Shown: positions 4,126 through 16,935 of the stretch, one piece after another
How positions within the stretch are numbered: the first letter of the stretch is position 1
How the letters are laid out: each line of letters starts with the position of its first letter
Assembly (NCBI GenBank): GCA_946411385.1
Contig: CAMKDV010000002.1
Span: forward strand, 1-64,000
Direction of reading: 5' to 3'
Origin: an uncultured Bacteroidales bacterium
GTDB taxonomy: Bacteria; Bacteroidota; Bacteroidia; Bacteroidales; Paludibacteraceae
DNA: 64,000 nt
Translations under genes and position numbers: made by a program
Notes under the pieces: model-generated
Seen by the model: only the letters and a program-made list of their open reading frames with translations
What the model was told of the DNA's origin: nothing
The model's database searches: none

Positions 4126-4148
4126 AAAAAAATCGTTGCAGTTTCTAC

Positions 4149-4180
4149 TTATATAGTACAAAACTGCAACGAAGGACTGC
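4149..4180 (-). promoter_or_regulatory. Bipartite box GCAGTC-N15-GTACTATATAA upstream of radical SAM gene
   Basis: Plus strand ttatatagtac-N15-gactgc; same motif and spacing at 4749-4780 and 6476-6507. Confidence 0.8.
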
Positions 4181-4193
4181 GTGAAGATGAAAG

Positions 4194-4718
4194 TTATTTC
4201 TTTAGTTTTCCTTTACTTTCCAAATATGTTGTAAATAATTCCCATTGTGAAGCATTTTTCTGCTGATTAACTTTTACTGCATCCGAATCAAGGTATTGGA
4301 GAGGGTAGCTGTCATAGAGATAATATTTTCCGTCTATATTTGTAGATTCTTGATTGCCGTAACATAGCACAAGATTGTCATAGATGCGGTTATCCCATAA
4401 GCCGACAAAACTGCTGACCACAAACAAGTTGCTATCATCCAAGTAGAATTCTATTTCATTGAAAGGCTGTAGACGCTTGTATAAAGGTACAGACATGTTT
4501 CTGAATATGATTTCCCGTGTGTCCACATCGAACCATTCAATGTCTGCTTCTGAGAACAGGACTTCATGGTTGGTGTTTGTGCCAGAATGAGAAATACCAC
4601 ATGCGTAAAGTGGGGCTTTGTGGAATTTTTCTACTTCTTTGTCTTGGCTGCAAGCTGTCATGGTAATGCTGGTAATGGCTATCGCCATCATCCATGCGAG
4701 GATTTTGTTTTGTTTCAT
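4194..4718 (-). CDS. Small secreted lipoprotein-like protein, unknown function
   Basis: Signal peptide MKQNKILAWMMAIAITSITMTACSQ with lipobox-like TAC; no recognised domain. Confidence 0.6.
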   Translation of the reverse strand: MKQNKILAWMMAIAITSITMTACSQDKEVEKFHKAPLYACGISHSGTNTNHEVLFSEADIEWFDVDTREIIFRNMSVPLYKRLQPFNEIEFYLDDSNLFVVSSFVGLWDNRIYDNLVLCYGNQESTNIDGKYYLYDSYPLQYLDSDAVKVNQQKNASQWELFTTYLESKGKLKK

Positions 4719-4748
4719 GTCTTTTAATAGTTAAAAGTGTCTCTTTAT

Positions 4749-4780
4749 TTATATAGTACTAAAAACATTAAAAAGACTGC
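4749..4780 (-). promoter_or_regulatory. Bipartite box GCAGTC-N15-GTACTATATAA upstream of lipoprotein gene
   Basis: Plus strand ttatatagtac-N15-gactgc, 5 nt from the end of the sigma-barrel gene. Confidence 0.8.
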
Positions 4781-4784
4781 ATGA

Positions 4785-6455
4785 CTACCATGTGAATCTT
4801 ACTCCTAATGGTATAGTAAAATCAAATGGGCGTTCTGTCCGATATGTCTCAATACCTTTTGTCAAGGGCGCGTAATAATTTATATTGGGCTCCAGATATA
4901 GTGTCATATGCGGTATTACTTCATATTGAACACCTGCCCCGATACCCACAGACAACATCCACGGAGCATTGATAACAGGCTCTGTAATCGACGATTGTTC
5001 AATATCAGCATAAGGTCCTCCATATATATAATTTGTAGTCATACTACCGCCTATAGGCATATCCAGTTGTAAACCTCCGGAAGCATAGAGATTCCAATGC
5101 GTGCCGCCGGTTAATTTGTAACTGAATCTCAATGGTATTCCTAAATAGTGCAATTTCTGTGAACGCTTAATGAGAGTGTTCTCATTTCCGCTTTCGTAGT
5201 TGGATCTCAATAAGGAATAGCTGAGACCTGTGGATAGTGACCATCTGCTGTTTAATTGTCTGCTTAGTGATATTTGTACTGTAATAGGCATGGAATGGTG
5301 TTTCTTCTCTGTCAGTGAATCCATTGGATGGTAGGAATTAAATATGGCTACTCTACGCATGTTTTGTGCATTAACTGAATCCATCATATCAACATTATTA
5401 TTTACGTATTCCATATATTCGCCCCAATTATACAATCTCGCGGATGGAGCACCGGCAACAGACGAAGAAGGTATGGTCATATAGTTGTCTGTGCGATTAA
5501 TATCCGGCAATGCTGTAACGGAATATGCTAATGCTAAATGCCAGTTATGCTTTCTTTGTGTCTTGATTATATTTATTGCATCATTCGTGGTATAATTATC
5601 CTTAGGAACACGTCTGTCTATATGTACTGAAGGTATAGTATCGATTGACTTTTGATTAGCTGTAATTGGCGAAAGCGTATCTATGTTATGCAGCGAATCT
5701 GAATTATGCACTATCAGGGCAGATAATGTGTCTTCGTTTATCGGAATATATTCTTGCGCGATTGCCTTTTCTTGATATTCTGTTGTATGCAATATCCAAG
5801 TGTTCGTTGTATCATTGTCATGTTTTTCTTCATTGCCGGCAATAATTGTTTCTTTAATGTCATTGTCTCCTTTTTTGAGCAATAATATAGGTAGTTGAAT
5901 TAATAGTAATAGAAGCAATACCCAATATTGCTGCATCATTTTACGGAGCATCTGCTTGGCACGCGTAAGTTGTGAGGAAGACGAATGCGGTTCTATACCA
6001 AGCATAGCCGCAATTTCTTTGTGGGTAAGACCCTCAAAAACGGAAAGATTGAAAACTTGCTTATACCCTTCAGGAAGTTTGTCAATTAGTTTTATCACTT
6101 CTGGTAGTGGAATACCCCTTACATCTGTTGCCCCTTCTTCAATAGGTGGAATTTCAAGTTCGTTGATTTCTTCAAGGGATATTGTAGGTAAGACTTCTGC
6201 GTAATCATTACATTTCAATGCTACGTTTCTTACTATGGATATCATCCACGCTTCTGCCTTACTGTCCTCGCGCAATGAATCAAGAGATGTAAATATAATA
6301 ACGAATGCGTCATGTAGTGCATCGTTAACCATATCTTCATTACTGATATACCGCCGGCATACACTCCTCAATCGTGGAGCGTATGACTTGTATAGTTCAC
6401 CAAGGGCATCCTCTTCTCCCTTCCTACATCGTTCTATCAGTGTTTCTATTCCCAT
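4785..6455 (-). CDS. Sigma-70/ECF-like factor fused to inner-membrane helix, linker and outer-membrane beta-barrel domain
   Basis: Sigma2-like ELYKSYAPRLRSVCRRY..DALHDAFVIIF; sigma4-like KQVFNLSVFEGLTHKEIAAMLGI..SSSQLTRAKQMLRK; helix YWVLLLLLLIQLPILLL; C-terminal alternating strands (GIPLRFSYKLTGGTHWNLYASGGLQLDMP...TIPLGVRFTW). ATG at 6455 (the 6464 start is GTG). Confidence 0.85.
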   Translation of the reverse strand: MGIETLIERCRKGEEDALGELYKSYAPRLRSVCRRYISNEDMVNDALHDAFVIIFTSLDSLREDSKAEAWMISIVRNVALKCNDYAEVLPTISLEEINELEIPPIEEGATDVRGIPLPEVIKLIDKLPEGYKQVFNLSVFEGLTHKEIAAMLGIEPHSSSSQLTRAKQMLRKMMQQYWVLLLLLLIQLPILLLKKGDNDIKETIIAGNEEKHDNDTTNTWILHTTEYQEKAIAQEYIPINEDTLSALIVHNSDSLHNIDTLSPITANQKSIDTIPSVHIDRRVPKDNYTTNDAINIIKTQRKHNWHLALAYSVTALPDINRTDNYMTIPSSSVAGAPSARLYNWGEYMEYVNNNVDMMDSVNAQNMRRVAIFNSYHPMDSLTEKKHHSMPITVQISLSRQLNSRWSLSTGLSYSLLRSNYESGNENTLIKRSQKLHYLGIPLRFSYKLTGGTHWNLYASGGLQLDMPIGGSMTTNYIYGGPYADIEQSSITEPVINAPWMLSVGIGAGVQYEVIPHMTLYLEPNINYYAPLTKGIETYRTERPFDFTIPLGVRFTW

Positions 6456-6475
6456 AATGGGCACTATGTCTCTAA

Positions 6476-6507
6476 TTATATTGTACTAATTATTTGGAAA
6501 AGACTGC
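6476..6507 (-). promoter_or_regulatory. Bipartite box GCAGTC-N15-GTACAATATAA upstream of sigma-barrel gene
   Basis: Plus strand ttatattgtac-N15-gactgc; matches the two downstream units. Confidence 0.8.
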
Positions 6508-6539
6508 ATGTCATAATAATTTTTTCATTTTTTTGCCCA

Positions 6540-6570
6540 CAAAGGTACAATATTTTTTGAAATATACAAA
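6540..6570 (-). promoter_or_regulatory. Probable primary-sigma promoter (TTTG..TAccTTTG) upstream of sigma-barrel gene
   Basis: Minus-strand TACCTTTG (6547-6540) with TTTG at 6570-6567; spacing 23 rather than 24. Confidence 0.5.
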
Positions 6571-6640: not shown

Positions 6641-6660
6641 AGTGCCCTCATTCGGGCACT
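6641..6660. terminator. Rho-independent terminator of the Detocs-like operon
   Basis: AGTGCCC-N6-GGGCACT flanked by A/T tracts, about 80 nt past the dtcC stop. Confidence 0.75.
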
Positions 6661-6739: not shown

Positions 6740-7984
6740 CTACAACATCTCTCTTATAAATTCATATAAAAAGACCCCACTACTATAACTGCATGTTTTA
6801 TGATGGTCGTCTTTCTTTTTTATATTTGCAAAATCAGAAACAGCTTTAATCCAAAGAGCTTTCTTATCTAGAGTGTGAGCTGTTGTATATAAAGCAAATC
6901 CTTCCATATCTAATGCTTGCAGTTTTCTCTCGTCTTTTTTTAATTTGTCGATAAAAGAGGATGATGTTACTACAAATGGCCCACATACCGTCTTTGAAAT
7001 ATATGCGGATACATTGTCCTTTTCTTCTTTTAAATTTGCGTCATGTATAGTATTGTTTATGGTTCTCATGTGTTCAGGATCTGATATGAAATCTGATACC
7101 AATGATATTAATTGTCGAGAAGCGGGAATCTGGTTCATTTCTTTAAGGAATTGTAAGTCTCCATTTTCCGACTCTGAAATTTTACCAGATGCATAGTCGT
7201 GTATGGCATCTGCTATGATAATATCATCCAATGATACAACTCCATTATCTATTCCGGCAGTAATACCTGTCATAAAAATTTTGTCTACGTTAAAACGGTT
7301 GTACAAAGTTGAAGCTAATACGGACGTAGTGCATATACCAGGTTTATTTGCGCACGCAGCAATAATCCGATAATCTTTAAGATGGCTTGTTGTAATTGTT
7401 GTGGTCTTAAAAACAAAAGGAAGTCCATTTACATGTTTTGTGTCCCATTGAGAACCGGCAAAAGCTTTTAGCATTTGACTGAATTCTTCAGAAAGAGCAC
7501 AAATAATCCCAATATCATATTTATCACGATTAAATATAGATGCTTCAAGATCTTTTTTCATTTGCCCTAATTGACAAACTTTATCTTTTAATTGATTCTT
7601 CCAATCATTATTTTTACGAGAATAGAACAAAAGATACCATAATTTATCTTTGAATTCCTTTTGTTGTTCAGAAAACTCGCCTTCATATTCTGTCAAACCA
7701 ATTATTTGAGTTGGTTTTTTGATGCTTTGATTAATGTATATTTCTTCCATTAATTCAACACCTCCACGATGATTTATTTCCTGATCCTGGTCATTCTTAT
7801 GTTCTGGAAGAACCATGTCAAGAATGAGCAAATCATATGTTTTCATTTGCAGTTTTTCTCTACCATCTACTAAACAATCTGCTTCATCAATAGATATTTC
7901 TCCCGTGGTGAATAGGGGCTGAATGACAGCCTTTAATGATTCCCTTTTTTCTTGGACATCATCAAGTATAAGTATTGTTATCAT
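6740..7984 (-). CDS. dtcC: Response-regulator receiver fused to nucleoside-phosphorylase-like effector (DtcC-like, Detocs)
   Basis: Receiver ILILDDVQEKRE..LLILDMVLPE; PNP-like YDIGIICALSEEFSQML..DKIFMTGITAGID..IIADAIHDY..ALDMEGFALY. ATG at 7984 overlaps dtcB stop (ATGA). Confidence 0.85.
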   Translation of the reverse strand: MITILILDDVQEKRESLKAVIQPLFTTGEISIDEADCLVDGREKLQMKTYDLLILDMVLPEHKNDQDQEINHRGGVELMEEIYINQSIKKPTQIIGLTEYEGEFSEQQKEFKDKLWYLLFYSRKNNDWKNQLKDKVCQLGQMKKDLEASIFNRDKYDIGIICALSEEFSQMLKAFAGSQWDTKHVNGLPFVFKTTTITTSHLKDYRIIAACANKPGICTTSVLASTLYNRFNVDKIFMTGITAGIDNGVVSLDDIIIADAIHDYASGKISESENGDLQFLKEMNQIPASRQLISLVSDFISDPEHMRTINNTIHDANLKEEKDNVSAYISKTVCGPFVVTSSSFIDKLKKDERKLQALDMEGFALYTTAHTLDKKALWIKAVSDFANIKKKDDHHKTCSYSSGVFLYEFIREML

Positions 7985-8430
7985 AAGATTATTTTTTGAA
8001 TTTGTTTTTTTAGTTCGTTTTTCCAATCGTTTTTCTGCGAAGAATAATAAATATAAGATTTGTAATTTTGAGGATAGTTCTCTTTTAACTCAATATCAAA
8101 TGCTTCTAATTGTTTGCGTCCAAATACGTTGTACATCGTGACAATAATAACAGGTGTTGTTATTTGGCGAAGAAACATCCCTTCGAGTATATATTGTCCC
8201 GCTGAGGGTTCTGGTAATCCACCACTAACATCAGTGTTTAAGTCGTACGTAGACATTGACATATCCAAAAGTATAAGTGCGTATTCACTTCCATGTTCAA
8301 AAATTTCTTCTTGTGCAGAATTATATGATGTGCGGTGATTAACTTGAAAATCAGGAAATTCTGACTTTAGAAAAGCAAGTATATTATTTGCTTTTTCTTC
8401 GTAATCTTCAATTAATAGTATTCTATTCAT
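7981..8430 (-). CDS. dtcB: Stand-alone response-regulator receiver (DtcB-like)
   Basis: MNRILLIEDYEEKANN..ALILLDMSMS; C-terminal KNDWKNELK resembles KNNDWKNQLK of the dtcC receiver. Confidence 0.8.
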   Translation of the reverse strand: MNRILLIEDYEEKANNILAFLKSEFPDFQVNHRTSYNSAQEEIFEHGSEYALILLDMSMSTYDLNTDVSGGLPEPSAGQYILEGMFLRQITTPVIIVTMYNVFGRKQLEAFDIELKENYPQNYKSYIYYSSQKNDWKNELKKQIQKIIL

Positions 8431-11400
8431 TAACTAGCATGTCTTTTATGTTAAACAATATTTCGACAATGCATTTTCCTTCTTTTGCTGTTATCGAAAA
8501 AGTATTTTTTGTGTTACCAAAGTCATATTTTACTATAGTCATTGCTTTCACTAATCCACTTCCTCCTTCTTGTTGCAATCGTTCTATATCATTCAATTTT
8601 GCCTCAAAGGAACGATTTAATTCATTCTCATCTATATTTTGGGGTAACTCGTTTATTAATGAAATTTCCATAAGATCATTATTAACCATTTTCCCGTTTA
8701 TAGTGAAAACTCTATCATTTGAGCATTTACCATATCGAAGCATATTCGTAAGGAATATAAAAAACAAATCAAAGAAGGAAGAACTATATTCGGAACGTAT
8801 TTGACATGGCAATGGGGCAATATTAATCTTTAAGTGTCCCTGTTTGTCTGGGTAATACCGAGCGGCTTGTTCCATAGTCATTCTGATATGACTTTCTATA
8901 TCAAAATCCTCAAACTTTGTTTCTTGTCTATGAAACCAGTTTTCCACTTTAGTAAGTTTACTAGTTAGATCAGCACGTGCATTATTCACAGCAGTTTTTA
9001 AATCGGCAGACAATGTGTCGTGTCCTTCTATAGAATCAATGCTTTGCTCTAATGTCTGTATGTGGTTGAAGATGGCGGGTTTTAAATCGTCTGCGATTCT
9101 ATTTCGAACAACTTCTAACCGGCTCTCAGTAATCTCCCAGAGAAAGTCTATTACACCTTTACAAAAAGCGTTCTTTTCAGATGTTTTAGCTTCAATGTCA
9201 AGTAAGCGTTCACACAAGACTTTTTTATCAATTGTATAATCGAATTCACCCTTAATGTCATCTTCCTCGTCAACATGTATCTGAATAACCGTATCTTTGA
9301 ATGATGCAATGAGGTTGTCAATATTGTTTGAGAATAGAGACTGTGCCTTATATAAGTAGTTGTTGATTTTAGAATCTAAAGAATATACACTTGACCAATA
9401 TCCTGACGGTACATATTGTTTACCTGATAGATTCAAAATCAGATTCAATCTTTCAAGGTCAGATCTAAGTTCACCTTCAAATACACCATGTCTTATGCGA
9501 GTGCTCAAATAAGTGCCTAGACCAAATCTACTTTTTAAAAATGCATACCTAATAGCATTAAATATTTGTAAGGCAACTTCTTCTATTGCATTGTTAGAAT
9601 ATGTCGCAATATCATCTATTATATCAGATGCATTATTTTGAGAAAAATCGGCTCCATTAACTAATACAAAAACTCGATTACTTTTCGCTAAAGCAGCTTG
9701 TTTGATAAATCTTTCATATAAATCATCAAGTTTGCAAAGTTCATATTTCATGATAGCATCTTCGTTAACAAAAATCTTACTATCATCCAGTTTCTTCATG
9801 CCGCGATATGCAACAATCTCGTGCATAAGTTCCGTACATATATCTGTATACATATGTTTTTCCGGATAGCAACTTTTCAAGTAACTTGCTATTTTAATTT
9901 TCTCATCAAGCACTTCAACCGTACTTTTCAATTTATAATGATGATAGAGAAGGTCATCTATTACTAACAGATTTAGAAATAATTCTACTTTTTGTGGATT
10001 TTTCCTTTTGAATTTCGTAAGCAAATCAGATGGGTATGTGGCATTTTCATATTTACAATAACTTTCCAATACGAATTGCTTTTGAGGGTAATTCTCCGCA
10101 TTGAGGAAAATGAATATTAAGAAATCAATGTCATTTTTCAAACCTTCATACCGGGAATTCTTTATGTCAATCATGAATTGCTTAGTGTTTACTTTCGAAA
10201 CGAAAGCCTTATTTTCGATATACTTATCAACATAGAAACGAATAGCATTCTGTCGATATGTGACATCCATTTTTGAATACGCTTTAAAAGTGTATTCTAC
10301 GGCAGTCTGAACAGTAGGTATATATTCTGCGTTATTTGTAATAATGGAGTTCCATAATTTTAATGAATTTTCATACTCGCCATTCTCAAATGTTATCTTA
10401 GCATTGTCGACCTCGCGAATATACGCAACGACATTCGGCTCTTCTGTTGTTAATTTTTCAACTCTTCTTTTTTGGTAACTGATCACAATAGAAGTCTTAT
10501 CATTATTTAGCCCCCAATCTAAATAAGATAATTTATTCTCTTTATCATCATATGCCGTTGTAAAAAGAGGGTCGTAACATGTCATGTTGGATAGATGAAG
10601 CCATTTATGCTGTTCCCACTTTTTCTCTTCTTTAATGAAATAATCTAATCCAGATGCAAAGTTTAATCCATATAAATTTTTGCTGCGTTGGTATAGCAGA
10701 TCCAAATATGGGGCATTATCTTGTTCCGTCATTATGGCAAAAACCAGTTTTGACACTTCATTTAAAACAGAACCGGATTTTTGTGTTATGGATTTGTATC
10801 CCTTATTTTCAAATAGTAAGGATCTGCAATATAACTTCACGACATCAAAATGTGAAGGATTCTTTGAGAGATAATTTTGACAACCTTTAATAACCTCATC
10901 GTAAGCTCCTGTATAATAATTATCTAATATGGAAATGAATGATTTGTCAAAATATGTTTTAGGAATATTATTATTTGAAGTAAGTAAAATATATGGTAGC
11001 CAACACCTATCAGATGTCATCCTATAAAGGGTAGATGCAAAATGACTCACGATGTCTTTTTTATCATAATCTTTTATTATATATGATCTTAACACGTAAG
11101 ACATTAATATATATCTATCAATTACAGAATTAAGGCTTTCCATAATCAGTGTAACAGATAGGTCTTCAATATTGTAATTTTGATAATAATTTAGACGAAA
11201 TAGGTAGTAACTATATCTATCCGTTTGGAATTCAGTTCTATTCTTTTTATAGCGAGAATATAATTCTGTGTCGTATTCGTATGGCGCAACAGAGCGTTGG
11301 CTTCTCGAAAATAATTTTGAAAGCACAATAGGTACAAATCCTCTTTTTAAATTCTGATGCTTTGAATTGAACTCACTAATAATATTTATTCCTTTAGAGA

Positions 11401-11905
11401 GATCGTCTTGAAGGCCGGCTATCGTTAACTTCATTTCATAATACCACACAGTGTACCCTATTGTTAGCAATGAGTTATCTAATAATGATTCTGCAGCTGA
11501 GTAATTTCCCAAAAGAATATTATTCTCTATTTCTTCACGAAGAGACACAAACGATTTCAAAATTTTCTTATATTTCCGCAATCCTTGTATAACCCAATTG
11601 ATTTCTAAATCAATGGATTGTGGTTTGTAAAAAAAACGATTCTGTCCGGTTCCTAACTCTACTGCGTTCTGAGGTGTCATGTTGCCCCATATAACATTAG
11701 AAAGAAGTGGATATCGATCACATAATTCTCGTAATGATGAATTGATTAATTTATTGTCACCACTATACTTTAAGCTATATGCGACCTCAGCCCATTTCTT
11801 TTTTTCTCCCTTCATGGAAAGGAAGGCATCAATCACTTGATATTTTTTCATACCAGCCTTTATTATGGGTACTCCTCGTTGTGGTATGGAACATTTATTT
11901 TGCAT
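8423..11905 (-). CDS. dtcA: Large sensor with C-terminal GHKL/HATPase-like domain (DtcA-like)
   Basis: 1160 aa; helical repeat-like N-terminus; C-terminal LFFIFLTNMLRYG (N-box-like) and EGGSGLVKAMTIVKYDFG (G-box-like); overlaps dtcB by 8 nt. Confidence 0.75.
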   Translation of the reverse strand: MQNKCSIPQRGVPIIKAGMKKYQVIDAFLSMKGEKKKWAEVAYSLKYSGDNKLINSSLRELCDRYPLLSNVIWGNMTPQNAVELGTGQNRFFYKPQSIDLEINWVIQGLRKYKKILKSFVSLREEIENNILLGNYSAAESLLDNSLLTIGYTVWYYEMKLTIAGLQDDLSKGINIISEFNSKHQNLKRGFVPIVLSKLFSRSQRSVAPYEYDTELYSRYKKNRTEFQTDRYSYYLFRLNYYQNYNIEDLSVTLIMESLNSVIDRYILMSYVLRSYIIKDYDKKDIVSHFASTLYRMTSDRCWLPYILLTSNNNIPKTYFDKSFISILDNYYTGAYDEVIKGCQNYLSKNPSHFDVVKLYCRSLLFENKGYKSITQKSGSVLNEVSKLVFAIMTEQDNAPYLDLLYQRSKNLYGLNFASGLDYFIKEEKKWEQHKWLHLSNMTCYDPLFTTAYDDKENKLSYLDWGLNNDKTSIVISYQKRRVEKLTTEEPNVVAYIREVDNAKITFENGEYENSLKLWNSIITNNAEYIPTVQTAVEYTFKAYSKMDVTYRQNAIRFYVDKYIENKAFVSKVNTKQFMIDIKNSRYEGLKNDIDFLIFIFLNAENYPQKQFVLESYCKYENATYPSDLLTKFKRKNPQKVELFLNLLVIDDLLYHHYKLKSTVEVLDEKIKIASYLKSCYPEKHMYTDICTELMHEIVAYRGMKKLDDSKIFVNEDAIMKYELCKLDDLYERFIKQAALAKSNRVFVLVNGADFSQNNASDIIDDIATYSNNAIEEVALQIFNAIRYAFLKSRFGLGTYLSTRIRHGVFEGELRSDLERLNLILNLSGKQYVPSGYWSSVYSLDSKINNYLYKAQSLFSNNIDNLIASFKDTVIQIHVDEEDDIKGEFDYTIDKKVLCERLLDIEAKTSEKNAFCKGVIDFLWEITESRLEVVRNRIADDLKPAIFNHIQTLEQSIDSIEGHDTLSADLKTAVNNARADLTSKLTKVENWFHRQETKFEDFDIESHIRMTMEQAARYYPDKQGHLKINIAPLPCQIRSEYSSSFFDLFFIFLTNMLRYGKCSNDRVFTINGKMVNNDLMEISLINELPQNIDENELNRSFEAKLNDIERLQQEGGSGLVKAMTIVKYDFGNTKNTFSITAKEGKCIVEILFNIKDMLVNE

Positions 11906-11993
11906 ATGGTATATGATATTAATATAGTGTAAATCTATTTGAACGCATCAATTGGAAGCACAGCTTATATAATTATTGACATATAGAATGTCT

Positions 11994-12692
11994 TTACATT
12001 AGCATGTTTTGTGCTTTTGCTATCGAATCTTCTTTCTCTTTAGCTTTACGTTTTTCTGCTGTTGTGATCGTCCCTTTTATGGAGTGTATTATACGATGAA
12101 CAGTAGTAATAGATTCTTTATACTCAGTCCTTTGTTTCTTCTTGCCTGCGAGAAGCCTACTGGCTCTATCATACGCGTCTTGTAGGAAAGCCATCAAAAC
12201 ATCAAACATATCATCAGATACGTGCTTCGATTTGGAATCGTATACGACTCCATAAGGCTTTAGATGCTCGTTTATCTTTTCAGCATAATCAGTACGTGAC
12301 ATTGCCCCGCCTTGGTGGTCATCGAAATGCAAAATGAACCAATATTCAAATGCTTGGTTTGAATATGCTACTTTATATTTTAGTGATACGGCAAGTTGAA
12401 TTGCCTCTTCAAAATCCTTATTATCATCTTTGTCAAAGACAACCCATATTTCATCAAATTTCTTAAGTTTTTTACGTTTCAACTCATGTGTCTTAATACT
12501 CTCAACTTTTTGTACCAAGGCAGTTGTGCTCAAACCTGTACCTACGGGCACGATAGTGATACCTGGAATGTGAAACTTGTCAAAATAATCCACCTCTGTA
12601 TTCTTCCCTTCGCAGACGACTAGCATCGTCTTTTGTAAAGGTGTTTTGCCTGCCGCTTTCGTCAATACTGGCTCCGTTTTAAAGTCATTCAT
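11994..12692 (-). CDS. RloB-family protein (AbiLii-like)
   Basis: MLVVCEGKNTEVDYFDKF..VVFDKDDN..YSNQAFEYWFILHFDDH; typical RloB signature. Confidence 0.8.
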   Translation of the reverse strand: MNDFKTEPVLTKAAGKTPLQKTMLVVCEGKNTEVDYFDKFHIPGITIVPVGTGLSTTALVQKVESIKTHELKRKKLKKFDEIWVVFDKDDNKDFEEAIQLAVSLKYKVAYSNQAFEYWFILHFDDHQGGAMSRTDYAEKINEHLKPYGVVYDSKSKHVSDDMFDVLMAFLQDAYDRASRLLAGKKKQRTEYKESITTVHRIIHSIKGTITTAEKRKAKEKEDSIAKAQNMLM

Positions 12693-12704
12693 ATCGTAAC
12701 CTGT

Positions 12705-13973
12705 TTATTTATTAATGTTGGAACCTAATTTCTCTAGGTAGGGAACTCCTCCAAAGCGTCCTTCGCGATAGAGTCTCCCAACTTTTGCCGTTTCTCTTAG
12801 ACTGAATTCTGAAATAGGAATTAAAGTTGCTTCTCCGTAACGGTCTTTCATAACAATAAAGATTTGGTCACGTCTAAACAAATCTGCCTCATCTATAAGA
12901 CTAATATTATGAGTGTTAATAATGAGTTGGGAATTATGAACATTAACCCTTTCGTCTTGAAACAATGATATAAGAGCCCTAACCAAATCATAATGTAATC
13001 CATTGTCAATCTCGTCAATCCACAGAACAGAACCGGTTTCCAAAGCATTGATAATAGGTCCAGCAAGAGATAGGAAACGATAGGTACCATATGACTCATC
13101 TTTTTCTAGACTTAATTTAGCATATCCGGCAGGTAAATGGCGCTTGTCGTATCGTTTATGAGAAATGCTTATTCCTGATACAATCGGACCATTAATGGCA
13201 TCTTCTGGAAGCATTCTTTTTATTTCGTCAGGCAATTCATCAGTGGAAATCTCATTAGGGGTAACATCAAATATCCCCAAATCTGCAGAGCGCAAAAATT
13301 CAATCATCTTTGCTTTCATTTTAGGTAATTCCAGTGCATTAAGAATGCGAGGTGCCATTGTGTTCAAAGAGGCAGATATGATATTATTCCGTCTAAACCA
13401 ATTAAGGATATTAAGTGAAAGTTCATCATTCCAAAGGGATAAGGAAGAAATGATAAGCGAATTTGCTCTAAACATCTTTGCTTCTTCCAAGTTCTTAATA
13501 ATTTTGGAGTTAATGTATTTTTCATTGTAATATACAGAAGGACCTCCCTCGAATTCCAGCACTTTAATCTCTTTACTCCTTTTGCGGAAAAGCCATTCAG
13601 CAATGATGCGTTCACTATTCAACTCAAAACCATATCGATACTGAATGTCATCCATCAGAAAGACAACCTCAAAAACGCTTGATAGGTCTGCACTATATGT
13701 ATCAAGCAAGAAGGGAGCATAACTCTTTTGCCAATTGTTCGATTGTGTATCCGCAGATGTCAAGACTATTTCACGCATGAAATTAAATGCTTGAAATAAT
13801 TTGGTTTTTCCACTGGCATTTGCGCCATATACAGCAGCTGTTCGCAACAGAGCATATTGGGGAACCTGTATTAGATTCTCCATTTTTTCTCTATAGTAGT
13901 TGGATGCTACCATATTAATCACAGTTTCGTTCTTGAAACATTTGTAATTGTTGAATCTGAATTGAATTAACAT
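12705..13973 (-). CDS. RloA-like AAA ATPase (AbiLi-like)
   Basis: IQFRFNNYKCFKNET..AAVYGANASGKTKLF..SVLWIDEIDNGLHYDLV..LIINTHNISLID. ATG at 13973; ORF track start lies upstream of the promoter. Confidence 0.8.
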   Translation of the reverse strand: MLIQFRFNNYKCFKNETVINMVASNYYREKMENLIQVPQYALLRTAAVYGANASGKTKLFQAFNFMREIVLTSADTQSNNWQKSYAPFLLDTYSADLSSVFEVVFLMDDIQYRYGFELNSERIIAEWLFRKRSKEIKVLEFEGGPSVYYNEKYINSKIIKNLEEAKMFRANSLIISSLSLWNDELSLNILNWFRRNNIISASLNTMAPRILNALELPKMKAKMIEFLRSADLGIFDVTPNEISTDELPDEIKRMLPEDAINGPIVSGISISHKRYDKRHLPAGYAKLSLEKDESYGTYRFLSLAGPIINALETGSVLWIDEIDNGLHYDLVRALISLFQDERVNVHNSQLIINTHNISLIDEADLFRRDQIFIVMKDRYGEATLIPISEFSLRETAKVGRLYREGRFGGVPYLEKLGSNINK

Positions 13974-14565: not shown

Positions 14566-16935
14566 TCATTTTGAGCCACTCAAAATACCGCTTTCGGTAT
14601 CTTCATTGTCAATGCGTTTCCAACCTTCGCGGTGCTTGGTTCCAAAGTCCAGATTAACATTGAAATTGAGCATCAGCACTTGGCGGTAGTTCTGCATAAC
14701 GGCGGTATTGGCAGTCGGGGCAAGTGCGGACAAGTCTTTTACAACCGTTGTGGAGCCGTGCGGAGAGAAAGGATTAACCATCATAATACCAAAGCCGAAA
14801 TGATCAGAATTATAGTTGATGCCTATATCATGCGTCAACTCGCCAATGGTCAGTGTTTCGCCCCACAAATTATGTTGTGCCGTAACTACATCAGCATAGA
14901 ACCGCCAACCTTTCAGCAGATAGAAAATGCCGCCACGCACACCGTAATTGATATGCTCATGGTTGTAAGACACCCCATTCGACAGGTTTGTCTCTGGGGA
15001 CCCCGTGGTTTTGCCTTGGCTGACCATATATTTGACGAACGGCGTGACATTGAACATCAGTTTGTTATCAAGCAGTTTGACCTGCAAACTCGATGAAACA
15101 TTCAATTTGTGAAATCCGCGTTGATTGTCATACGTGCGGATGGCGTACGCAGAGCCGTCTATGATTTCCTCGTATGTCTCTTCCATTATGGGCTTGTGAT
15201 CATAGCTGTAGTTAGTCCAAATGTTGATATTGACATGCTTGGACTGCCACGAAAATTCCATTTCATTCGACACATACATGACGGATTTCAGGTTGGGGTT
15301 GCCTCGCCGCATTTGGTACTTGTCAATCTGTTGCGTAATATTGGACAACTGGGACAAAGAGGGTTGATAGCCGGACACGTAGCCTTTGTATTTCCAAAAC
15401 CAACCTTTACCGAAATCGTAACTCATGGTCAACTGCGGTCGTGCAATCCATGTGCTTTGCATTTGTCCGCCTTGCTCAATAAGGGTGTGCATGGCTCCTA
15501 TACCTACCACATACGAAAATTTATTTACCCTGTGCCGCATCTCCGCAAAAGCGTATGTTTCTCCTGTGGTCATGTTAACGGTTGCCTCGGTGCTTCCCAA
15601 ATAGGTGTTTTTCACCCATTGTTGGTTATGCCTTGCACCTATAGTCAGCATGATATTCTCCCATTCCTTTTCATAGATTGCCTCGCCGATGAGTGACCAT
15701 TTGTCACCTCTCACAGACGAAATCACATCGGTCGTATCTGTCGCAACGGAGCCGAAAAGCGGTGTTTGCAGAAATCGGCGGTCGCTGTGGGTGTTAATGT
15801 ACGTGCCGACCACATCAAAATACAAGTGTTGCTTGTGCGGCAGGTTGTGCTGATAATAGATGTCCAATGAGGGCGACTGACTGCTGCTTTTGTCGTGATC
15901 GTGTATCTCAAATGAATCCGTTGGCTGGTACAGACGGCTGTCGCGGTCGGATGCTCCGTAAGGTGTATATGCCATATTATCACGCAAGCGGATGTTCAGC
16001 ATATTCTTATCCCCGTTTGTCCAGTTGTAATTCAATGAGATGTTTATGGGATAGGTCTTATAGCGTGTCGGTTCTCCTACTTCGTTGTTCTCAATCTTTC
16101 CCGCACTGAAATTATAGGTCTCATTATTGGTGCGCGTCCAATAAATATCATATGGCGAGTATGACACAATAGCCTGTAAGGAAGATTTATTGAAATGCAC
16201 TTTGCCCGCCATGTAATAATTTCCTATTCCCGGCAGGGTCAAGCCGTTTGTGCCTGCAAGCATGAGACTGCCGCCTGTGTCGCGGTGTTTGACGATATAA
16301 TCCACCACAGCCGCCACGCCGTTGTATCGCACGCCCGGTTGGTCGTGGTATTCAACGCGGATAATATCTTTCGGATTGATGGCTTTTACATCTGCTGTAC
16401 TTGCCTCGATACCGTTGATACGCAGTTGCACGCTCTCGTCAGAAAGAGTTTTGACGGAGTTGTCAATCGGGCTAATCACGATACGCGGAATTTGTAAGTT
16501 CTGTAGCAGAGAAACGCCATCCGACGAAGCCTGTGTCTGCTCCTTTGACGGCAATAAAATTTGCCTGTCCACCTTCTGAATAATGGCTTGACTTTCCACG
16601 ACCACCTCACCCAGTTCCGTTGCGCTTTCTTGCATGAGGATGTCGCCGATGTGGGTATTGTCGTTTATGGTCAACGCCATACGGATTGTTTCATAACCGA
16701 TATAGGAAAGTTCCAAGATGTAATCACCATTTCCGGCATCAATGGTGAATTTGCCGCTGTTGTCTGTCGTGGTTCCGGCTATCTGCACCGTGTCCTGCAT
16801 CAGCAAGACGGTTGCGCCGATGATGGCTGACTTGTCGTTTGCATCTTTGATACGACCGGATATTTTGGCATTGTTCGCCATTGCGGTCATTGCTACACAG
16901 AGCATTGCTGCGAGACATAGAATTTTTCCTTTCAT
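14566..16935 (-). CDS. Outer-membrane TonB-dependent-receptor-like beta-barrel with carboxypeptidase-like regulatory N-domain
   Basis: Signal peptide; AKISGRIKDANDKSAIIGATVLL..DNSGKFTI; plug VQLRINGIEASTADVKAINPKDIIRVEYHDQPGVRY; barrel strands to the end. Confidence 0.85.
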   Translation of the reverse strand: MKGKILCLAAMLCVAMTAMANNAKISGRIKDANDKSAIIGATVLLMQDTVQIAGTTTDNSGKFTIDAGNGDYILELSYIGYETIRMALTINDNTHIGDILMQESATELGEVVVESQAIIQKVDRQILLPSKEQTQASSDGVSLLQNLQIPRIVISPIDNSVKTLSDESVQLRINGIEASTADVKAINPKDIIRVEYHDQPGVRYNGVAAVVDYIVKHRDTGGSLMLAGTNGLTLPGIGNYYMAGKVHFNKSSLQAIVSYSPYDIYWTRTNNETYNFSAGKIENNEVGEPTRYKTYPINISLNYNWTNGDKNMLNIRLRDNMAYTPYGASDRDSRLYQPTDSFEIHDHDKSSSQSPSLDIYYQHNLPHKQHLYFDVVGTYINTHSDRRFLQTPLFGSVATDTTDVISSVRGDKWSLIGEAIYEKEWENIMLTIGARHNQQWVKNTYLGSTEATVNMTTGETYAFAEMRHRVNKFSYVVGIGAMHTLIEQGGQMQSTWIARPQLTMSYDFGKGWFWKYKGYVSGYQPSLSQLSNITQQIDKYQMRRGNPNLKSVMYVSNEMEFSWQSKHVNINIWTNYSYDHKPIMEETYEEIIDGSAYAIRTYDNQRGFHKLNVSSSLQVKLLDNKLMFNVTPFVKYMVSQGKTTGSPETNLSNGVSYNHEHINYGVRGGIFYLLKGWRFYADVVTAQHNLWGETLTIGELTHDIGINYNSDHFGFGIMMVNPFSPHGSTTVVKDLSALAPTANTAVMQNYRQVLMLNFNVNLDFGTKHREGWKRIDNEDTESGILSGSK

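Follow-up and report, generated by a model that had tools for sequence, protein, structure and literature searches.

In Bacteroidota, Dma proteins act as anti-sigma factors that span the envelope, and the Das1/Dma1 and Das2/Dma2 systems each combine an ECF21 sigma factor with a dual membrane-spanning anti-sigma factor (PMC13088901). Dma3 of Bacteroides thetaiotaomicron (BT_2778-2779) reportedly begins with a sigma domain of its own and lacks a separate cognate sigma (PMC13088901), and BT_2778 is listed among the iron-dependent genes of an iron-deficiency stimulon (PMC10434189). The layout of Dma3-type sigmas is known; their promoter, targets and role are not known in the literature that we searched, which did not cover the founding Dma paper. 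Another fused ECF sigma is IutY, which is joined to a membrane anti-sigma and provides a model for proteolytic release (PMC8999054). Here we analyze a sigma-barrel gene of an uncultured Bacteroidales bacterium and three sequence boxes that accompany it. By comparison across relatives, the boxes form a promoter-like unit linked to this gene.

The sigma-barrel protein and its cassette

The protein is composed, in order, of an ECF sigma2-sigma4 part (residues 1-176), a membrane helix joined to it without a break (approximately 178-196), a disordered tether of approximately 100 residues (approximately 197-301) and an outer-membrane barrel (approximately 305-555). Pfam Sigma70_r2 and Sigma70_r4_2 exceed their cut-offs, as does the sigma70-ECF model, and OMP_b-brl_2 is also matched. 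The criterion for an ECF sigma, namely regions 2 and 4 and no other sigma regions, is met. In the AlphaFold model, which is of moderate quality given its mean pLDDT of 66.8, a helix at 159-196 links sigma4 to the membrane span, confidence is low at 194-301 and a barrel occupies 305-555. Structure searches return sigmaE-type sigma factors and OmpA-type barrels, and the sigma2 fold matches sigmaE bound to the -10 strand (4lup; target TM 0.83, rmsd 1.8). Two criteria of the Dma group are satisfied: a membrane helix followed by a long disordered tether and a C-terminal beta-barrel and, as in Dma3, an N-terminal sigma domain on a Dma-like chain. The criterion of an N-terminal anti-sigma domain is not met, as none was seen with Pfam or in the AlphaFold model. 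We do not class the protein as a standard Dma because sigma2-sigma4 occupies its N-terminus and runs directly into the membrane helix.

The cassette also encodes a lipoprotein, for which family and fold searches returned neither a known family nor a known fold, and a radical-SAM/SPASM protein and an oxidoreductase whose genes overlap by 4 nt (Table 1). The radical-SAM protein has generic matches only: its nearest solved relative is SkfB (E 1.5e-4), and a weak match to a viperin model spans the general radical-SAM core. The housekeeping-type pattern upstream of the sigma-barrel gene recurs in 7 of 72 relatives (0.13 expected).

Table 1. Features of the sigma-barrel cassette, with positions in the window
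Feature	Position	Strand	Basis, predicted role or remark
Terminator-like hairpin	6641..6660	minus	between the sigma unit and upstream genes
TTTG-N19-TACCTTTG	6540..6570	minus	pattern; candidate promoter of the housekeeping (-33/-7) type, for basal expression
A-tract 5' of box 1	6521..6525	minus	conserved A at -70 to -67; candidate UP-like element
Box 1, GCAGTC-N15-GTACAATATAA	6476..6507	minus	zero mismatches; predicted autoregulated promoter of the sigma-barrel gene
Sigma-barrel gene, 556 aa	4785..6455	minus	Pfam, AlphaFold model, fold matches
Box 2	4749..4780	minus	exact match; directly past the sigma-barrel stop codon; predicted lipoprotein-gene promoter
Lipoprotein gene, 174 aa	4194..4718	minus	signal ends TAC-S
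Box 3	4149..4180	minus	exact match; predicted promoter of the radical-SAM/oxidoreductase operon
Hairpin and T7, arms flanking the box-3 -10	4126..4172	minus	predicted to terminate the lipoprotein transcript; overlaps the predicted box-3 promoter
Radical-SAM/SPASM protein gene, 353 aa	3064..4125	minus	Pfam
GFO/IDH/MocA-type oxidoreductase gene, 343 aa	2036..3067	minus	Pfam, coordinates

Directly upstream of the cassette lies a defence-island-like block (6740-13973, minus strand), with matches to PDC-M60 A/B/C (PADLOC, three genes) and an AbiL-like RloB/AAA pair. This block looks inserted, since in the related genome G145 the sigma gene is directly adjoined by a counterpart of the outer-membrane gene at 14566-16935.

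Three boxes and their place beside sigma-barrel genes

The three boxes share a constant spacing of 15 nt and lie 20-30 nt from an ATG (20 nt from the end of box 1 to that of the sigma-barrel gene). We searched the window, that is the whole stretch of 64,000 nucleotides analyzed, for GCAGTC-N15-GTACWATATAA with up to 3 mismatches, and the three boxes alone were returned. Shuffled windows gave 0.25 expected matches and never reached three. Over the 2.86 Mb and 28 contigs of the genome, the boxes are the sole exact copies, and 14 further matches at 2-3 mismatches are at control level (13 with the reversed pattern). We rejected a larger regulon in this genome, as relaxed matches do not rise above the level of the control. 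The Bacteroidota housekeeping (-33/-7) promoter has the form TTTG-N19-21-TAnnTTTG, and none of the three boxes matches it. The original prediction, which had placed three minus-strand boxes with common half-sites and 15-nt spacers at the positions in Table 1 and had seen no other copy in the window, is confirmed on both counts, and the genome-wide search that it had proposed found no further exact copy. It had also described the spacers as unrelated, which held only in part: those of boxes 1 and 2 both carry CTTTT straight after GCAGTC, which judging from relatives belongs to the element (TGCAGTCTTTT), and that of box 3 forms one hairpin arm.

Within the genus, the fused gene is present in 7 of 178 genomes and a split version in one. 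The exact motif occurs in six of these seven genomes, beside the sigma-barrel gene, and in none of the other 171; the seventh has a copy with 2 mismatches. No box accompanies the split sigma of G063, even at 5 mismatches. In four of the seven fused-gene genomes (L020, L021, L049 and L050) the contig stops within the fused gene, twice at about residues 164-171. These breaks may reflect strain variation, or repeats by the sigma/membrane junction.

We compared 80 named loci, mostly from metagenome-assembled genomes of rumen or gut Prevotellaceae/Bacteroidaceae, whose sigma-barrel proteins are approximately 38-65% identical to ours, in most cases across the full length. Nearly all of them carry TGCAGTCTTTT...GGACT.TATAA approximately 52 nt 5' of the ATG and a second copy 5-6 nt past the stop codon, and many have a third copy further on. 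At up to 2 mismatches, we counted 42 boxes upstream of the sigma gene, 70 directly downstream and 43 further downstream, as compared with none elsewhere on the coding strand and three on the opposite strand. The -35 half is found upstream in 74 of the 75 loci with enough sequence, but in only 0.8% of background windows; in the sole exception (L137), the protein match begins only at residue 47. The genes behind the boxes include 53 lipoprotein homologs and 53 radical-SAM homologs, the latter mostly 70-85% identical and with 53 boxes of the hairpin type in front of them. A box directly past the sigma stop codon is present in 70 of the 80 relatives, and mostly stands before a lipoprotein homolog.

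Across the order (343 genomes), the motif was found only in this genome and in G180, plus one match with one mismatch. The G180 copy (L177) is a box 1 that matches perfectly and retains its 5' leader, with no sigma gene behind it; it is possibly what is left of a cassette that has been lost. Sigma-barrel matches at E <= 1e-36 were obtained in 40 of the 151 genomes in the family of G503. The motif occurs in 13 genomes, 11 of them among these 40; in the remaining two, the G625 box precedes a sigma-gene start and the G551 match lies inside an unrelated ORF. With the exception of G551, all strict matches in relatives fall within the cassette. Overall, boxes are kept beside sigma-barrel orthologs down to approximately 35% identity and are almost absent elsewhere, so that the prediction of conservation beside orthologs was tested and passed. 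The comparison genomes are mostly metagenome-assembled, and the locus counts are not independent because the sequences are related.

Three near-identical copies within 2.4 kb could also be the functionless relic of a recent repeat or mobile element. This explanation is all but excluded: the spacers vary inside a locus, and the half-sites and their positions are kept across proteins that are 35-65% identical.

Anatomy of the probable promoters and alternative readings

When 60 dereplicated loci are anchored at the ATG, the profile peaks at an A-tract (-70 to -67), TGCAGTCTTTT, GGAC and ATAGAGA, with up to 1.7 bits as compared with a maximum of 0.5 in shuffles. The -35 part (GCAGTCTTT) is nearly invariant and the -10 part varies by lineage (GGACT, GTACT, TATCT or CTCCT). 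Beside divergent proteins (33-37% identity) the -35 is mostly still GCAGTCTTT and the -10 has become TATCTATA or CTCCTTTTAAT. The motif as first described is thereby refined into a constant -35 part and a lineage-specific -10 part. In the proteins, sigma4 is near-invariant throughout the family, and residue 67 of the sigma2 loop (before W70) is A, V or T in the GGAC/GTAC group and F or L in the others.

In 74 of 80 loci the upstream and downstream boxes agree in -10 class, as compared with 53 on average and 63 at most under permutation; a few loci (L117, L150, L221 and L224) mix classes. The boxes of one locus usually change their -10 together, as expected if a single sigma reads them all. This concordance is supportive rather than conclusive, because independent lineage shifts are few.

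Two conserved half-sites at a fixed spacing could equally suit a conventional transcription factor, in which case the boxes would be operator or activator sites and not a -35/-10 pair. We consider this very unlikely. The element is non-palindromic, always directed at the gene and 20-30 nt from the ATG, its spacing is that of an ECF promoter, an A-tract lies upstream, and Pfam detects no DNA-binding regulator besides the sigma in the cassette.

The boxes might instead be ECF promoters read mainly by one or more separate Das-type sigmas, of which the fused sigma is merely one target. In favor of this reading, related GCAGTATTT elements precede some split sigma genes, and B. thetaiotaomicron mutants in dma1 and dma2 show raised expression of the dma3 locus, which suggests crosstalk (PMC13088901). 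Against it, within the genus the motif occurs only with the fused sigma gene, despite other ECF genes in the genomes that lack the fused sigma, and the -10 shifts along with the fused-sigma lineage. We regard the separate-sigma reading as unlikely. Exclusive reading by the fused sigma is nevertheless not proven, because a similar element accompanies some sigmas of the split Das type.

The elements in question, GCAGTATTT...TTTAT, lie approximately 60 nt upstream of the split Das-type sigma genes of L153, L157 and L172. They hint that the -35 could be common to a wider sigma family.

A third alternative is that the boxes work as RNA elements, either terminators or hairpins that mask the start codon. 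Its main support is box 3, whose spacer pairs with sequence 5' of the radical-SAM start codon in a 13-bp stem with a T7 tail (fold z-score -4.8). Among 16 distinct sequences, 96.6% of the cells of this hairpin are paired, with compensatory changes from CG to GC in six and from AU to UA in one. The spacers of boxes 1 and 2 also appear at times complementary to the start-codon region. When partners were exchanged, however, the spacers paired just as well as with their own start region (permutation P 0.22 for box 1 and 0.36 for box 2), and masking by these spacers was rejected as unsupported. Furthermore, box 3 and the hairpin are separable, since loci without the 3' arm (such as L102 and L127) keep the box, and no Rfam element is matched. 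The RNA reading is therefore very unlikely as an account of the boxes. The hairpin itself is likely, on the simplest reading and by inference from sequence alone, the terminator of the lipoprotein unit, with its 5' half doubling as the promoter spacer.

Proposed mechanism and comparison with known systems

Since matching signals accompany nearly all relatives of the sigma-barrel gene, the boxes are very probably promoters that its sigma activates, including the one of its own gene. We consider it likely that they are -35/-10 pairs read by the ECF sigma domain of the sigma-barrel protein, as originally predicted. Comparison supports the promoter reading strongly but is its only basis, with no transcript-end, binding or mutant data, so that start sites and sigma dependence are inferred. 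The accompanying prediction of autoregulation and a small local regulon fits the box positions in about 80 loci, with the same two inferences.

In the model that we propose, the boxes would drive three units: the sigma-barrel gene itself, the lipoprotein gene and the radical-SAM/SPASM and GFO/IDH/MocA operon. The operon would depend on box 3 because the hairpin is proposed to end the lipoprotein transcript. A basal amount of sigma-barrel protein would come from the housekeeping promoter and be kept at the membrane, with the sigma tethered from sigma4 through the inner-membrane helix and the disordered tether to the outer-membrane barrel. As helix, tether and barrel form a single chain, one polypeptide would bridge the distance between the outer membrane and RNA polymerase. 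The sigma domain would then be liberated in response to a signal at the barrel or the envelope, with proteolytic cleavage close to the membrane helix as the simplest route. This release has no direct support and is inferred because IutY is freed by proteolysis (PMC8999054). In the freed sigma, sigma4 would contact GCAGTC and sigma2 the lineage-specific -10, and it would activate its own gene through box 1 (positive autoregulation) and amplify the local cassette. Binding of the sigma to the boxes, the release step, the signal and the enzyme products are all inferred.

The genes behind the boxes differ among lineages. Lineages of the GGAC/GTAC type have them in front of the lipoprotein unit and the radical-SAM/oxidoreductase unit. 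In six divergent loci (L216, L218, L219, L221, L224 and L226), a GCAGTC box stands before a methyltransferase-like gene, of one type in all six, that replaces the radical-SAM unit, with the methyltransferase identity confirmed by Pfam in three, and another divergent group (L220, L222 and L223) keeps the radical-SAM/oxidoreductase pair. A bolder reading is that these loci represent Bacteroidales-wide one-protein devices, running from barrel to sigma, with a common promoter code that serves the device itself and an exchangeable cargo. In this code the -35 (GCAGTCTTT) would be invariant and the -10 would vary among lineages in step with sigma2; the cargo would be radical-SAM/oxidoreductase enzymes in some lineages and a methyltransferase in others. 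We lean slightly towards this reading. If true, it would provide the first readable regulon for Dma3-type sigmas: a searchable code that predicts their targets in any genome, offers ready reporter sites and connects a lipoprotein and enzymes of the radical-SAM or methyltransferase type with an envelope-spanning sigma. The question of how such a sigma gains access to a promoter also becomes sharper, given that its sigma4 helix enters the inner membrane and its chain terminates in the outer membrane.

The closest solved relative of the sigma part is E. coli sigmaE (1or7, E 1.1e-11), which differs from it in being soluble and in having a separate anti-sigma, RseA. The -35 of sigmaE is GGAAC, unlike GCAGTC. 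IutY (ECF243) resembles the sigma-barrel protein in the fusion of a sigma to a membrane-spanning regulatory part; however, this sigma serves in iron starvation and responds to a separate aerobactin signalling system, and an outer-membrane barrel in the same chain is not described (PMC8999054). Das1/Dma1 and Das2/Dma2 share with our locus the membrane helix, the long disordered tether and the C-terminal beta-barrel (PMC13088901), but their sigma is separate and held by an N-terminal anti-sigma domain, whereas here sigma4 meets the membrane helix directly. At the level of layout, the sigma-barrel protein is like Dma3 as described (PMC13088901): in both, a sigma domain heads an envelope-spanning chain.
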